A stretch of DNA of 64,000 nt, from the NCBI GenBank assembly GCA_947503575.1, contig CANNDZ010000002.1:682001-746000 (forward strand), written 5' to 3'. The notes under the pieces are model-generated. The model did no database searches and was not told where the DNA came from. It saw only the letters and a list, made by a program, of their open reading frames with translations. The position numbers and the translations under genes were made by a program. This document shows positions 12,431-52,210 of the stretch, one piece after another (position 1 is the stretch's first letter; every line of letters begins with the position of its first letter). The DNA comes from an uncultured Kordiimonas sp. (lineage in GTDB: Bacteria; Pseudomonadota; Alphaproteobacteria; Sphingomonadales; Kordiimonadaceae).

Positions 12431-13060
12431 ATGGATGCCGTACTTGAAAGGCCCGAAAACGGTCCTGAACTGAAGGTAATCCCGCAGGACGCCGCTGAAA
12501 GCCCTACCCGGGCCGAGGCCGAAGCCGCGGTTCGCACCCTGATTAAATGGGCTGGCGATGACCCAACAAGGGAAGGCCTTCTTGATACGCCAAAGCGTGT
12601 TGTGAAAGCCTATGAAGAATTTTTTAATGGCTACAAAAAGGACCCGGCAGAAATTCTGTCGCGCACCTTTGAAGAGGTTGCCGGGTATGACGACATGGTC
12701 GTGTTGCGCGGCATTAAGGTCGAAAGCCACTGCGAGCATCATATGGTGCCTGTGCTTGGTACGGCCCATGTAGCCTACATGCCAAATGGCAGTGTTGTTG
12801 GCATTTCCAAGCTCGCCCGTATTGTGGAAGCTTTTGGTAAACGCCTGCAAACGCAGGAAACGATGACTGCGCAAATTGCCGATGCGCTGGAGGAACACCT
12901 GGACCCCAAAGGGGTTGCTGTGGTGATCGATGCCACGCACAGCTGCATGTCGTGCCGCGGTGTAAAGCATTCTGACGTTTACACCATCACACGTCAGTTC
13001 CGTGGCTGCTTTAAAGAGGCCGATCAGGAACGCCGTTTCTGGGATCTTGTCCGCGGCTAA
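12431..13060 (+). CDS. folE: GTP cyclohydrolase I
   Basis: This enzyme converts GTP to dihydroneopterin triphosphate, the first step of folate synthesis. It is 209 residues long. Zinc ligands are in [10 protein letters not shown] (Cys and His) and in [10 protein letters not shown], and the active-site region [20 protein letters not shown] is intact. This is the canonical FolE1 form with the usual family length. The ATG at 12431 has GGAAAGGA upstream, and a structured leader precedes it. hisI follows on the same strand. Confidence 0.97.
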
Positions 13061-13111
13061 TTGCGGGACAAACAACTAATGCTTGATGAAGCGGCGTGGT
13101 TATCTGACTAT

Positions 13112-13168
13112 GCCGCTTTATTTTTGGGCCGCTTTATTTTTGGGCCGCTTTATTTTTGGGCCGCTTTA
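13112..13168 (+). repeat. 16-bp tandem repeat, about 3.6 copies
   Basis: The unit GCCGCTTTATTTTTGG is repeated three times without change (13112-13127, 13128-13143, 13144-13159), followed by a 9-base partial copy. It fills the gap between the folE stop and hisI. Identical copies suggest recent slippage. Each copy carries a T-run after a GC-rich stretch but does not form a clear hairpin. Confidence 0.9.
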
Positions 13169-13178
13169 GTGTTGGAAA

Positions 13179-13613
13179 ATGCACATGACCAAAATCCAGT
13201 TTGCTGACAGATCAGACCGCGCGGCGGTGGAAACCGGCACCGGCTTTGCGCCCAAGTTTGACGAGCGCGGCCTGATCCCCGTTTTCACCACCTGCGCAAC
13301 AACAGGAAAGGCCCTGATGCAGGCCTGGATGAACGCAGAAGCAATCCAGAAAACTATTGAAACTGGCGAAGCGCACTATTTCAGTCGGTCCCGCCAGGAA
13401 CTGTGGCACAAAGGCGCGACGTCCGGCGAACTTCAGGTGGTCAAAGCGTTCCGCGTTGACTGCGACCAAGACAGCCTGTGGCTGATCGTCGAGCAAAAAG
13501 GCGGTAAATGTTGTCATGTGGGGTATGAAAGCTGCTTTTTTCGCGAAATCCCGGTTGGCATCACCGTTGACGGCGATGTGCCATACCAACTGGTAAAAAA
13601 CAGCAAGGAATAG
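13179..13613 (+). CDS. hisI: Phosphoribosyl-AMP cyclohydrolase
   Basis: Opens the adenine ring of phosphoribosyl-AMP, the third step of histidine synthesis. 144 residues, cyclohydrolase domain only (no HisE fusion). The signature runs [26 protein letters not shown] without breaks, then [18 protein letters not shown] (metal aspartates) and the two conserved cysteines of [16 protein letters not shown]. Start ATG at 13179; another ATG six bases later is possible. Its distance from other his genes is typical of alphaproteobacteria that carry it next to folE. Confidence 0.95.
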
Positions 13614-13671
13614 GTTGGGCTTAACTGCTGGGGTCAGAACCCTGGTTGCATCGATTACAGCTTTACTTAAT

Positions 13672-13686
13672 GTTCACTATCTGTTC
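13672..13686 (+). promoter_or_regulatory. LexA SOS box (GTTC-N7-GTTC)
   Basis: GTTC at 13672-13675 and GTTC at 13683-13686 are separated by exactly seven bases (ACTATCT). This is the direct-repeat LexA operator of alphaproteobacteria, with no mismatch. It lies 35 bases upstream of the ATG of a Y-family polymerase, exactly where an SOS operator would be expected. No other gene starts nearby. Confidence 0.85.
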
Positions 13687-13721
13687 TCATTCTGCAATAC
13701 TGATAAACGGTTTGTAGTATC

Positions 13722-14969
13722 ATGAGAAAACCAACAACAATTGAACGACTGTTTTTAGATTTTGATGGCTTTTTTGCCGGCGTCGAAGAACAGGCGCGCC
13801 CACGCCTGCGGGGTAAGCCTATCGGCGTTACGCCGTTCGAGACCAACACTGGCACCTGTGTTATCGCCGCCAATCAGGCGGCAAAAACCAGAGGTGTCAA
13901 AACCGGCATGTCCGTTACAGAAGCACGCCGTGTGTGCCCCAGTATAGAATTGGTACCGCAGTCTCCTGATTTGTATGAGCGCGCACACCGTAAACTATGC
14001 TTACTGGTAGAACAGGAAATCCCAATTGATGTCATATGCAGCATTGACGAAATGTGCTGCCGGCTGGAGCCAAAAGACATTGCTAATCCGCAAGCCCTGT
14101 CGGACCGCATAAAGGCGCGGATCAAAGCAAATATTGGTGATTACATTACATGTTCCATTGGCATGGCCCCCAATCTGCAGCTTGCGAAAATCGCAGCAGA
14201 AATGGATAAACCCAACGGGTTCACGGTTCTGCATCCACAGGATTTACCGGGCCGCTTGCTTGGTCTGCAAATCAGTGATTTTCCAGGAATTGGCAGCGGC
14301 ATGAAAACCCGGTTGATTGATGCAAATATTACCACTGTTGAAGACTTGTGGAACACCCAGCCAAAACATCTGCGCGCCCTGTGGGGAAATGTAACTGGCG
14401 AAAGATTTTGGTATGCCTTGCACGGGTATGAAATTCAGGCAGAACATACCCAGCGCGCCATGTTCGGGCACGGCCGCGTGTTGCCGCCGGATTGGCGAGA
14501 TTTTGATAATGCGTTTAATGCTGCGCGCCTGCTAACAATAAAAGCTGCCCGCCGCCTGCGCCGCGAGAGTTTTCTGGCCAATACGTTTGGGCTGTGGCTG
14601 CGCCTGAAAGACGACCGCTGGTCTGGCGATATGCATATTGGGGCTGCAAACGATGACCAGGCTGCCATTCGGGCCCTGACAACCTTGTGGCAAAAAGCGC
14701 AATCAGAATTGCCGCAAACAGCCAGGATAAAACGGTTTTATGTTGCGCTGTATCATCTACAGCCTGCCGCGGCAGAACAGTTCGATATGTTCACCAAAAA
14801 TGATGCCCAGCGAAAAAAATGGGCGTCGGTAAGCACCGCAATTGACGAGCTTAACCAACGCAACGCCAAAACACTGGTTAGCATGGGGCCATGGACGCCG
14901 CCGCCCGGTGGGTATGCTGGCGGTAAAATCGCCTTTGGACGGGTGCCCGATATGGAGGATTTCTGGTGA
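13722..14969 (+). CDS. Divergent Y-family (DinB-like) DNA polymerase
   Basis: A translesion polymerase of 415 residues. The palm has LFLDFDGFFAGVEEQ (metal-binding Asp13, probable steric-gate Phe18) and SIDE at 107-110 with catalytic Asp109/Glu110. GMAPNLQLAKIAAEMDKPNG and a helix-hairpin-helix region (FPGIGSGMKTRL) follow, then the little-finger domain. QFDMF near residues 353-357 resembles a beta-clamp binding motif. It differs from standard DinB after SIDE (MCCRL for AFLD) and at the C terminus. Relatives are often mislabelled as type VI secretion protein ImpB. An SOS box sits upstream, and the stop overlaps the next gene. Confidence 0.88.
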   Translation: MRKPTTIERLFLDFDGFFAGVEEQARPRLRGKPIGVTPFETNTGTCVIAANQAAKTRGVKTGMSVTEARRVCPSIELVPQSPDLYERAHRKLCLLVEQEIPIDVICSIDEMCCRLEPKDIANPQALSDRIKARIKANIGDYITCSIGMAPNLQLAKIAAEMDKPNGFTVLHPQDLPGRLLGLQISDFPGIGSGMKTRLIDANITTVEDLWNTQPKHLRALWGNVTGERFWYALHGYEIQAEHTQRAMFGHGRVLPPDWRDFDNAFNAARLLTIKAARRLRRESFLANTFGLWLRLKDDRWSGDMHIGAANDDQAAIRALTTLWQKAQSELPQTARIKRFYVALYHLQPAAAEQFDMFTKNDAQRKKWASVSTAIDELNQRNAKTLVSMGPWTPPPGGYAGGKIAFGRVPDMEDFW

Positions 14970-15211
14970 CTTTGGAGTTACAACTAGCTGACTATTTTAA
15001 TGGGTATCGTTTTCGCCTGCAATGTAGGCAATGCGGCAATGGCTGGCATAAGGACCCGGCTGATTTGTTGCAGCATCCCATGCTACATACTCGTATGTAC
15101 CTGCATGAGGTGGAACAGGCACTGCCATGCCGTGCCTGTCACAAAATTGCGGTTAAAATAACGCCTATCATTATAAAGCCAACCCATCATTTTGTTGGTG
15201 GCCTGGGATAA
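14966..15211 (+). CDS. Small four-cysteine protein coupled to the Y-family polymerase
   Basis: 81 residues starting with GTG inside the stop of the polymerase gene (GTGA), so translation is coupled. Two CxxC pairs (Cys20/Cys23 and Cys55/Cys58) are separated by about 30 residues rich in His, Leu and Met, which suggests a zinc-ribbon-like fold. The C terminus is hydrophobic and basic. I do not recognise the family. Sharing the SOS-controlled transcript implies a role with the polymerase, for example in recruitment or DNA binding; this is inference. Confidence 0.72.
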   Translation: MTLELQLADYFNGYRFRLQCRQCGNGWHKDPADLLQHPMLHTRMYLHEVEQALPCRACHKIAVKITPIIIKPTHHFVGGLG

Positions 15212-15314
15212 AACACATCACATGGGTAGGCGTGCCGCCACCATAAAACATACACACCCGCCCATACAGGAACGGCATGGAAATCACAAAAAAGTTATAC
15301 AATAACATTTCATC

Positions 15315-15482
15315 GCATCCATCCCACGCTTTGGCGCAGCGCTATGGTGCTGCGGGATGCCTGCGGTATTCTGCACTCAAACAAGGCACTAACGACACGA
15401 CAGCGAAGATACCCCAACCTCACGGGTTGGATTTACGATCCTCTTAATAAGCACTCAGGCCACTTCGGTGGCCTGTTTTTTT
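15315..15482 (+). ncRNA. Candidate structured RNA ending in a terminator
   Basis: The 374-base gap 15212-15585 holds no convincing ORF but folds strongly. The first hairpin lies at 15320-15359: CATCCC/GGGATG outside, GCAGCGC-TATG-GTGCTGC inside. The second is CCCAACC-TCAC-GGGTTGG at 15413-15430. A UUCG-loop terminator closes the series at 15456-15482. This could be a small RNA of roughly 170-190 bases or the 3' end of the polymerase transcript. It does not match an RNA family I can name, and no strong promoter is visible. Confidence 0.35.
15456..15482 (+). terminator. Rho-independent terminator with TTCG tetraloop
   Basis: Stem CAGGCCAC (15456-15463), loop TTCG, stem GTGGCCTG (15468-15475), then seven T. 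It works on the plus strand only, since no matching A-run precedes it. It closes either the polymerase operon or the structured RNA upstream. Confidence 0.88.
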
Positions 15483-15585
15483 CCCGGTAACAAACAACAT
15501 TAAAAGTGCAGGGATGACAAAGGGACCGCTGCTGCCCTATTCTGCCAACAGATAGATCACTAGCCCGGTCATTAGAAGGTATCAT

Positions 15586-16434
15586 ATGAAATACTGCTGT
15601 TTGGTGTTGGCACTGTTTATGGGGCTTGCCGTTCAGGTACCCGCAGGCGTTTTAGCGCAGGATAAAATCCGTAAAAACCTGCCACCGCGTGCCTTACCGC
15701 AAAACAACGTTACCAGCTTCCACCGACGCGCAGTCGACAGTAATGCAAAGCCATGGCAATCCATTGGGCGGGTCAACATTGGCGGGCGGGCGCATTGCAG
15801 CGGCACACTGGTCGGCAAGGATGTGGTGCTCACCGCCGCCCACTGCGTATACTCCAAGCGGGATCAGAAAATGGTGGTGCCGGGTATTGTGCATTTTGTC
15901 GCCGGCTATTCAAAAGGCGACTACCTCGGCCATTCCAAAGTGAAGTCCTACATTGTTGGGGACGGGTACCGCGGCGAAGAGGGAGCAAGCCGGTCAAATC
16001 TGGCTCATGACTGGGCCTTATTAACACTGGAAAAACCGCTGGGGGAAACACTGGGGTTCCTAACCGTGCCAACCGGCTGGTTTGACCAACCGGAAACAAC
16101 CGGATTGCCGCGCCCAATGCCCAAGTCTAAGCCACGCAATCTGGAAATCGCCGCCGGTGTAACCACAGCGGGGTATCCCGGCGACCGCAAGCATGTTTTG
16201 TCGCTGGAAGAAAACTGCAACATCATCACCACCGCCAACGCAGGCAGGATTTTATTCACCAGCTGTATCGCCCTCAGCGGTGACAGTGGCGGCCCTATTT
16301 TGCAAAAAACTGATGAGGACTGGAACATTATCGGTGTTCAAACGTCGGCCCTGAAGGCAGGTAATAAAATTTCGGGTGTCGGCATTTCAGCCCTGGTTTA
16401 CCAGCCATACCTCGCCGCCCTTATGGACCCATAA
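15586..16434 (+). CDS. Secreted trypsin-like serine protease (family S1)
   Basis: 282 residues. A signal peptide (CCLVLALFMGLAVQVP, then AGVLAQ) precedes a chymotrypsin-fold domain. The triad is visible: His in LTAAHCV near residue 86, Asp in HDWALL near 143 and Ser in SGDSGGPIL near 230. Two cysteines flank the active serine region (ENCN and TSC). Such proteins are exported peptidases; substrates are unknown. It stands alone, with a terminator upstream and a 131-base gap before gloB. Confidence 0.88.
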   Translation: MKYCCLVLALFMGLAVQVPAGVLAQDKIRKNLPPRALPQNNVTSFHRRAVDSNAKPWQSIGRVNIGGRAHCSGTLVGKDVVLTAAHCVYSKRDQKMVVPGIVHFVAGYSKGDYLGHSKVKSYIVGDGYRGEEGASRSNLAHDWALLTLEKPLGETLGFLTVPTGWFDQPETTGLPRPMPKSKPRNLEIAAGVTTAGYPGDRKHVLSLEENCNIITTANAGRILFTSCIALSGDSGGPILQKTDEDWNIIGVQTSALKAGNKISGVGISALVYQPYLAALMDP

Positions 16435-51589: not shown

Positions 51590-52210
51590 TTAATTGTCGG
51601 CAAGGTTGAAGCTGAACCGATAGCGAACACCGGTTACTTCCTGACCCTGACCGTTAATGATCTTGGGCTTATACTTGAATTTCGCAGCAGCCTTGATGGC
51701 AGAGCGCTCAAAATAACCCTTTGGCTCGGCTTCAATCACAATGATCGAGTCCGGCGGCACAGTGCCATCTTCGGCAACAGTCAGCTCAACAATGGCGTAC
51801 CCTTCAATACCGCGTTCCTGCGCACGGCGCGGATATTGCGGGCGCACCCGCACCAGCGGCAAATAGTCACCGTCAGTTGCAGCGCCAAGGCTGATAGAGC
51901 CCAAGTCAACATCACCGCCAGCACTGGCACGGCCGATAGACAAGTTCACCTTGTCAGGGCCCTTGATGTCCAGTTGCGGCGTATCAATTTCCGGCGGAGG
52001 TGTTTCTACTTCCGGCGGCTTTTCAATTTCACGTTCCATGCGCTGTGGTGGCTGTTCGTCAATATCCTGAACCACATCCACAAAACGGGCACGCTGATCA
52101 TCATCCAAGTTTACTTCGCCGTCACCCGCAACAAGAAAGTTCATTACGAGAAACAGACCGAAAGTAACGCCAGATGCTGCGGCCAATGAGGTTGCAAACC
52201 GAGCAATCAT
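51590..52210 (-). CDS. tonB: TonB family energy transducer of TonB2-type operon
   Basis: 206 residues. One N-terminal anchor (LAAASGVTFGLFLVMNFLVA), a Pro/Glu-rich spacer (PPEVETPPPEIDTPQL), and a TonB C-terminal domain with VRPQYPRRAQERGIEGYAIVELTVAEDGTVP and AAAKFKYKPKIINGQ. It is more similar in its last 100 residues to the stand-alone TonB at 48.8 kb than to classical E. coli TonB. The ATG shares a base with the ExbD stop (TGATG), so translation is coupled. Confidence 0.92.
   Translation of the reverse strand: MIARFATSLAAASGVTFGLFLVMNFLVAGDGEVNLDDDQRARFVDVVQDIDEQPPQRMEREIEKPPEVETPPPEIDTPQLDIKGPDKVNLSIGRASAGGDVDLGSISLGAATDGDYLPLVRVRPQYPRRAQERGIEGYAIVELTVAEDGTVPPDSIIVIEAEPKGYFERSAIKAAAKFKYKPKIINGQGQEVTGVRYRFSFNLADN

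Follow-up and report, generated by a model that had tools for sequence, protein, structure and literature searches.

A probable LexA-regulated, mobile operon in Kordiimonas and other Alphaproteobacteria encoding a Y-family DNA polymerase and a small four-cysteine protein

The window analysed here is a 64,000-nucleotide (nt) stretch (GenBank assembly GCA_947503575.1, contig CANNDZ010000002.1, positions 682,001 to 746,000) of an uncultured Kordiimonas sp., an alphaproteobacterial genome of 3.6 Mb. It contains a LexA-type operator followed by two overlapping genes, one encoding a Y-family DNA polymerase and the other a small protein with four cysteines (Cys4). The closest relatives bearing this polymerase/Cys4 cassette are Kordiimonas and its kin. 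The features of the locus, in window coordinates, are as follows (aa, amino acids; pLDDT, predicted local distance difference test):

13672..13686, + strand: LexA-type operator GTTCACTATCTGTTC, a GTTC-N7-GTTC direct repeat ending 35 nt before the polymerase ATG at 13722
13722..14969, + strand: Y-family DNA polymerase, 415 aa, identified by Pfam, PDB sequence, Foldseek and tree; clade outside the DinB, UmuC and UvrX-like references
13758..13760, + strand: catalytic Asp13 (LDFDGFF), invariant in 64/64 sequences
13965..13997, + strand: candidate partner-contact patch, residues 82-92 (D83, L84, R87, A88, L92), proposed from a predicted helix 82-97 and the residue pattern
14046..14051, + strand: catalytic Asp109-Glu110, SIDE motif, invariant in 64/64 sequences
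14778..14792, + strand: beta-clamp-like motif QFDMF, residues 353-357, with Q353 in 64/64 sequences
14820..14888, + strand: putative RecA-NT-like/DUF4113-like segment, residues 367-389 (DUF4113 sub-threshold; RecA profile test not significant)
14901..14966, + strand: conserved polymerase C-terminal tail PPGGYAGGKIAFxRxPxxEDFW, residues 394-415, from the alignment (residues 411-415 with pLDDT <50)
14966..15211, + strand: Cys4 zinc-ribbon-like protein, 81 aa, probably translationally coupled (GTGA overlap; model pLDDT 86)
15023..15034, + strand: first CxxC, C20-C23, both cysteines in 92/92 proteins
15128..15139, + strand: second CxxC, C55-C58, with C55 in 92/92 and C58 in 90/92 proteins
15191..15202, + strand: small-protein tail motif F-V-G-G, residues 76-79, with F76 and G79 in 92/92 proteins; predicted unfolded

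The first gene encodes a protein with the features of a Y-family polymerase, namely an IMS catalytic domain (Pfam, 4.3e-34), the Asp/Asp-Glu triad, and thumb and little-finger domains, the thumb and C-terminal IMS domains both scoring above cut-off. A preliminary description of the locus had proposed a Y-family polymerase keeping Asp13, Asp109 and Glu110, and both the IMS match and the invariance of D13, D109 and E110 in all 64 aligned sequences agree with it. The structural model (mean pLDDT 88, predicted template modelling score (pTM) 0.61) matched Dbh, Dpo4 and DinB structures in Foldseek across about 340-365 alignment columns. The cassette family formed a single clade (97/99) in a tree built from 68 Y-family proteins, with the DinB, UmuC and UvrX-like references placed elsewhere. 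It did not fall inside ordinary DinB, a placement that the same description had named, together with absence of the box from all relatives, as refuting its proposal. Ordinary DinB was rejected on the basis of this separate clade; the best NCBIfam DinB (DNA polymerase IV) model reached 148 bits against a cut-off of 399, and the genome's own DinB grouped with those of E. coli and Agrobacterium (100/99). One detail of the description needs correcting, the departure after the SIDE motif, as the protein stays Y-family beyond SIDE with thumb and little finger kept. The nearest outgroup was a pair of roseobacter plasmid polymerases. Next came a wide range of alphaproteobacterial polymerases that have no partner and are 34-44% identical to that of the window; ImuB formed a very long branch whose placement is unsure. 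Three proteins of the genome carried an IMS domain above cut-off: DinB, this polymerase, and a presumed ImuB adjoining a gene read as imuA.

Homologues of the polymerase were expected from the preliminary description to be mislabelled as type VI secretion ImpB, and 18 of the 20 best plasmid records were indeed annotated 'type VI secretion protein ImpB' (7 of these from the outer group, 39-42% identical). The matches listed for the polymerase, covering 8 Pfam and 11 NCBIfam families, included no type VI secretion sheath family (ImpB/VipA), nor did PADLOC return a defence-system match for this protein. Towards the C-terminus, the clamp-like Q353 is present in 64/64 sequences within the family motif Q-x-D-[LM]-[LF]; the beta-clamp consensus is given as 'QxxLF' (PMC12926913). 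RecA-NT-like segments are described as common in Y-family polymerase tails (PMC6511836). In the present family, DUF4113 was detected below threshold in 3/9 fragments (best E 0.0022, always the N-terminal part of DUF4113; E. coli UmuC control 4.1e-23), and a profile run against 30 RecA N-termini scored 11.9 in the expected register, with column shuffles reaching 17.9 and other polymerase stretches 12.0 and 12.8. A RecA-NT-like segment in the polymerase tail is suggested by these matches, not confirmed.

The second gene starts inside the first, the polymerase TGA and its own GTG (14966) overlapping by 4 nt. The GTGA junction and the 81-residue protein with two CxxC pairs were read as first described (14966-15211; C20, C23, C55, C58). 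C20, C23 and C55 are invariant among the 92 aligned proteins and C58 is kept in 90 of them, and the model (pLDDT 86, pTM 0.71) predicts a small alpha-beta unit around the cysteine pairs. From about residue 71 onwards the predicted confidence drops (pLDDT 57 over residues 71-80, 51 at residue 81); this tail is the best conserved segment of the protein (3.06 bits per column vs 1.67-2.18 elsewhere), and in 92/92 tested proteins the sequence stops one to three residues after F-x-[GA]-G (L101, L107, L142 and L175 were left out of this test and of the Mantel test below). Because conservation is high where the model predicts disorder, the tail looks like a docking peptide. The whole protein is predicted to be a zinc ribbon with a floppy tail. 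A spurious small open reading frame (ORF) was rejected given the C20, C23 and C55 residues and the shared C-terminal pattern in 92/92 proteins. A UmuD or YolD homologue was likewise rejected, as no UmuD, peptidase or YolD match was found in the Pfam and NCBIfam scans (25 of 55 families listed in the scan of the 92 members), and so was a component of a defence system, the best PADLOC match being at E 0.065. A profile search of PDB sequences with the small protein gave a best E of 0.014.

At E <=0.1 and among the matches listed, the families shared most widely by the 92 members were zinc ribbons, with TFIIS matched weakly by 15 members (best 0.00063) and TFIIB, also weakly, by 10. Zinc ribbons often bind nucleic acids, and with such ribbons as the commonest weak matches the small protein might bind DNA instead of the polymerase, preparing the substrate (gaps, stalled primer ends) and being co-expressed for that reason. 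This alternative is rather unlikely, as the best conserved part is a short hydrophobic and glycine tail and not a basic surface. Moreover, frames in one large-genome alphaproteobacterial genus (L255-L261) encode a related Cys4 ribbon that lacks the F-x-G-G tail. These weaker matches (one genus, phylum sample; 26-38 bits, in frames 74-199 aa long) end before the tail at 7/7 loci read, none of which has a family polymerase within its 3-kb locus, which argues that the tail goes with the polymerase.

Two further observations concern the small protein's possible parallels. In the genome's own DinB (G000:C1:1652191-1652631, L001), two CxxC pairs are part of the polymerase chain itself, in an N-terminal segment. 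Their spacing is different, yet they might parallel in cis what the small protein represents in trans. Three roseobacter-type polymerases without the small gene (L023, L024 and L075) possess an extra C-terminal tail ending in THFVTV or THFCSV, faintly resembling the HHFVGG of the small protein; in the tree, the closest neighbours of the family are L023 and L024.

The preliminary description had proposed checking whether the small ORF is conserved beside the polymerase, and this was found in nearly all loci. In the scan of named genomes (381 relatives, of which the best-scoring 80 were kept, so that the linkage counts describe the closer part of the family), a profile search placed the small gene directly 3' of the polymerase in 78/80 loci, with gaps of 94 nt and 246 nt in L154 and L158, respectively; the two loci lacking it are L097 and L116. 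It was also 3' of the polymerase in 18/19 IMG/VR loci, the miss (L189) being a contig that is cut off, and in 6/6 plasmid loci of the family. Among 59 related genomes, 17 had a polymerase at least 50% identical, of which 14 were adjacent to the small protein, one was a contig-end fragment (L048) and two had no copy either beside the polymerase or elsewhere in the genome (G025, G029). The related-genome, same-genus and named-genome locus sets share assemblies, and their counts are not independent. The small ORF overlapped the polymerase stop by 4 nt in 72/96 cases and by 1 nt in 16/96 (the start of L175 was wrongly assigned by the script in this count). Searching in the reverse direction, the small protein matched 14/385 genomes of the class sample at E 0.001, three of them strongly (>70 bits; the rest <30 bits), and all three strong matches, own genome included, lay beside a family polymerase. 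In the phylum sample 11/398 genomes matched at E 1e-4, and the five strong matches were again all beside a family polymerase (own genome and one relative included). The distance matrices of polymerase and partner were correlated (Mantel r 0.79, 0/2000 shuffles as high) in 74 representatives kept from 92 after near-copies were also removed. Single-sequence searches with the small protein gave no plasmid match at E 1e-5 and none in IMG/VR; the polymerase route found it in both, and the difference is attributed to fast divergence. In G019, which also has the full cassette, a stand-alone second copy of the small protein (L018:1444-1749) has its own box GTTCTTATTTTGTTC 42 nt before the ATG, with no family polymerase in the 3.2-kb locus.

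The sister alphaproteobacterial polymerases, the nearest relatives in the tree, differ from the family in having another C-terminus and in lacking the small Cys4 gene (0/35 loci), and they often keep the box (23/31). A polymerase of this type can thus do without the small gene and might act alone or with RecA, as in the PolY-RecA type (PMC12926913), the small gene being a hitchhiker or a transcriptional regulator in the operon. This appears very improbable. The linkage across alphaproteobacterial groups, plasmids and virus-labelled contigs and the congruent distances are too tight for a hitchhiker, and no helix-turn-helix or other regulator family scored above cut-off among the matches listed in the small-protein scans.

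The GTTC-N7-GTTC repeat, the LexA motif of Alphaproteobacteria (PMC3323433), lies where the preliminary description had placed it, 35 bases before the polymerase (13672-13686, ATG at 13722). Counting loci with at least 120 nt upstream (partial polymerases L101, L107 and L189 and short-upstream L167, L184 and L188 dropped), a box was found within 120 nt 5' of the polymerase in 69/77 genome loci, 57 as GTTC-N7-GTTC and 12 on the opposite strand. Four control patterns occurred in 0-1/77 of the same upstream windows, and control windows farther upstream contained the box in 0/69, 1/71 and 0/72 cases. On virus-labelled contigs the box was present in 16/16 loci (13 on the opposite strand). The operator near the polymerase start is thus conserved, as expected of a LexA-regulon member; its absence from all relatives, which the preliminary description had named as part of a refuting outcome, was not observed. 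The same pattern is found in this genome 31 nt before lexA (TIGR00498), 27 nt before imuA and 101 nt before uvrA, with a further copy 130 nt before ssb (the last three names read from translations). A second perfect GTTC-N7-GTTC in the window (51614-51628, minus strand), 10 nt before a 201-residue frame, may be a chance occurrence.

Taken together, it is considered likely that the two genes constitute a single LexA-repressed operon that encodes a mobile, two-protein translesion polymerase, with the small zinc-ribbon protein as a subunit docked by its tail. Several observations weigh against this reading. One box alone is at chance level in the window (2 GTTC-N7-GTTC boxes vs 1.66 expected) and in the genome (57+42 matches vs 80+59 for the reversed control pattern), so that its significance was taken from conservation upstream of relatives, where 8/77 genome loci are without it. 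Of 16 box-bearing stretches chosen by eye from 99 genome box matches plus a few loci of interest, 15 were read, and two of these 15 (uvrA/ssb; imuA) held recognised SOS genes. The recA and dinB loci of this genome, as read, have no perfect GTTC-N7-GTTC box; in C. crescentus, no evidence for SOS control of dinB is reported (PMC1839093). C58 is replaced in 2/92 small proteins, and metal binding may therefore vary, while the small-protein model had no PDB fold match at E 0.001 (best Foldseek E 0.17). The RecA-NT motif expected in such polymerases passed neither the DUF4113 nor the RecA-profile test. Finally, the polymerase occurs without the small gene in the early-branching L040 and L097 (the latter on the same contig as the L036/G029 locus) and in the nested L116, with no copy of the small gene elsewhere in the genomes of L040 and L097; the polymerase can persist without its partner.

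The survival of partnerless polymerases would also fit a non-essential brake. On that view the small protein would be a negative modulator, either an antimutator or a turnover adaptor limiting the polymerase, in agreement with the tight linkage and with the lasting presence on mobile elements of an enzyme that may be mutagenic. Such a role is improbable, no inhibitor or degradation-tag family having been found among the matches listed in the small-protein scans.

For the two-protein reading, the partnerless polymerases provide a candidate contact. Six of the 131 positions conserved in 98 partnered polymerases (30, 83, 84, 87, 88 and 92) were changed in both early-branching partnerless ones, and five of the six lie together in a span of 10 residues, a clustering reached in 0/20000 random picks. 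Among 300 random pairs of partnered members, the mean number of shared changes was 0.08 (maximum 7), with at most 2 in one stretch. The patch lies on the predicted helix 82-97, before the SIDE motif; R87 is present in 98/98 partnered polymerases, whereas L040 and L097 have D or N there. This pattern has its own difficulties, as the partnered L098 departs at three of the five patch residues (E83, T84, Y88) and the patch cannot be separated from phylogeny. L040 and L097 are both early branches, in an order that the tree does not settle, and shared ancestry could explain the pattern. The nested partnerless L116 keeps the residues of partnered polymerases, as after a recent loss of the partner. 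Its polymerase (L116:3516-4769) follows a box with one mismatch, GTTCATGTTATGTTT, and represents a natural loss.

Around the cassette, the ORFs at 12431-13060 and 13179-13613, 5' of the box, are presumably folE and hisI. About 245 nt 3' of the small ORF, one further feature was found:

15456..15482, + strand: intrinsic-terminator-like hairpin with a T run

The 64-kb stretch contains 5 terminator-like sites vs 2.7 in shuffles, which makes this hairpin weak evidence when taken alone. No Rfam match for a structured RNA was obtained at E 0.5 within 13000-16000. Between 10 and 19 kb the longest ORF is 695 aa, and none is of dnaE2 size.

The cassette was found in 4/18 other genomes of the same genus, some of them incomplete. 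In K. aquimaris it occupies the same place, with the same upstream genes and added sequence downstream, and four other loci (L092, L093, L095, L098) match the window in the cassette only. Plasmid-borne cassettes were found in Agrobacterium, Mesorhizobium, Yoonia, Maritalea and Pseudochrobactrum, as well as on a conjugative Aeromonas plasmid; in the Agrobacterium plasmid record, the small ORF is present and unannotated. One virus-labelled contig (L178), for which 7 neighbour frames were scanned, includes an endolysin and two DNA methyltransferases. Among deposited phages, the best polymerase relative (34% identity, Paracoccus phage Pthi1) is without the small gene. On the sequence comparisons as a whole, the cassette is mobile.

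Some of these loci have unusual surroundings or hosts. On the conjugative Aeromonas salmonicida plasmid pBY3 (L022:5001-6547), the cassette adjoins tet(Y), and its polymerase is very near that of Paenochrobactrum gallinarii (end branches 0.029 and 0.018), which suggests transfer between classes. Genes for an SOS response-associated peptidase (SRAP) adjoin the cassette on two plasmids (L020:7740-8435, L219:3110-3853), and PMC12926913 reports that other UmuC-like polymerases have SRAP-like partners. Three cassettes (L148, L160, L167) were in metagenome-assembled genomes labelled Bryobacterales or Nitrospinaceae, outside Alphaproteobacteria, for which wrong binning is possible.

Among known systems, the cassette resembles UmuC-UmuD (Pol V) in that overlapping genes of one operon (overlap of 1 nt for umuD-umuC in E. 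coli), often on plasmids, encode an SOS-type Y-family polymerase and its small partner. It differs in that the polymerase lies outside the UmuC branch, with DUF4113 below cut-off vs above for E. coli UmuC, and in that its partner is a Cys4 protein encoded downstream, whereas that of Pol V is UmuD, encoded upstream. The Bacillus YqjW-YqjX/UvrX-YolD systems, also present on a Priestia plasmid, share the order of a polymerase followed by a small non-UmuD protein, and in the model of PMC12926913 an arm of the YqjX-type small protein enters the polymerase. However, the Cys4 protein has no YolD match among those listed, its conserved arm is C-terminal whereas the YolD-type arm is N-terminal, and the two UvrX-like references branch elsewhere. 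DinB (Pol IV) shares the Y-family fold, the catalytic residues and a clamp-like motif, but forms a separate clade, and the genome's dinB locus is without a perfect box. The ImuA-ImuB-DnaE2 mutasome has the same LexA-type box at imuA of this genome; ImuB is catalytically dead (PMC6511836), whereas the catalytic residues of the cassette polymerase are intact and the imu locus is a separate one. Eleven polymerase module types are listed in PMC12926913, in the available text of which no Cys4 protein was seen and the single occurrence of 'zinc' is in the reference list. The superfamily of the polymerase is a known one, and its pairing with the Cys4 protein was not found in the literature searched (titles and abstract openings), although it may be in supplements or subscription papers outside that search.

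Under the preferred reading, DNA damage would lead RecA to trigger the loss or cleavage of LexA, releasing the operon, and coupled translation would supply matched amounts of polymerase and small protein. The polymerase, with its intact active site, presumably binds the sliding clamp through Q-x-D-[LM]-[LF], possibly with a RecA contact through its tail. The unstructured F-x-[GA]-G tail of the zinc-ribbon partner would dock on the polymerase, plausibly near helix 82-97, and the docked protein may license or position the polymerase at the clamp for lesion bypass, with a possible role in mutagenesis. By analogy, this licensing role would be like that of UmuD' for UmuC and that proposed for YqjX/YolD with YqjW/UvrX, the sequence being unlike both. 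In this picture the overlap, the linkage, the separate clade and the conservation of box and tail are established from sequence, and LexA control, coupling, zinc binding, the physical complex and its docking site, the clamp and RecA contacts and the role in mutagenesis are inferred. Whether the cassette represents an additional kind of multi-subunit error-prone polymerase in bacteria, a mobile alphaproteobacterial counterpart of Pol V that plasmids and phages have spread, with a zinc-ribbon subunit that docks by a C-terminal tail and whose recruitment was independent of UmuD and YolD, is regarded as evenly balanced.

SOS mutagenesis in Alphaproteobacteria is best known from ImuA-ImuB-DnaE2 in Caulobacter (PMC3901139, PMC1839093). 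The present cassette has been hidden under a wrong label (type VI secretion) and as a 'hypothetical protein', and it offers a concrete candidate contact between the F-x-[GA]-G tail and helix 82-97 of the polymerase. If the proposed reading is true, a second SOS polymerase, mobile and with a dedicated subunit, would constitute an extra route of damage tolerance or mutation in rhizobia, marine bacteria, plasmids and phages, and would suggest that unlike small proteins have been recruited several times to control Y-family polymerases.

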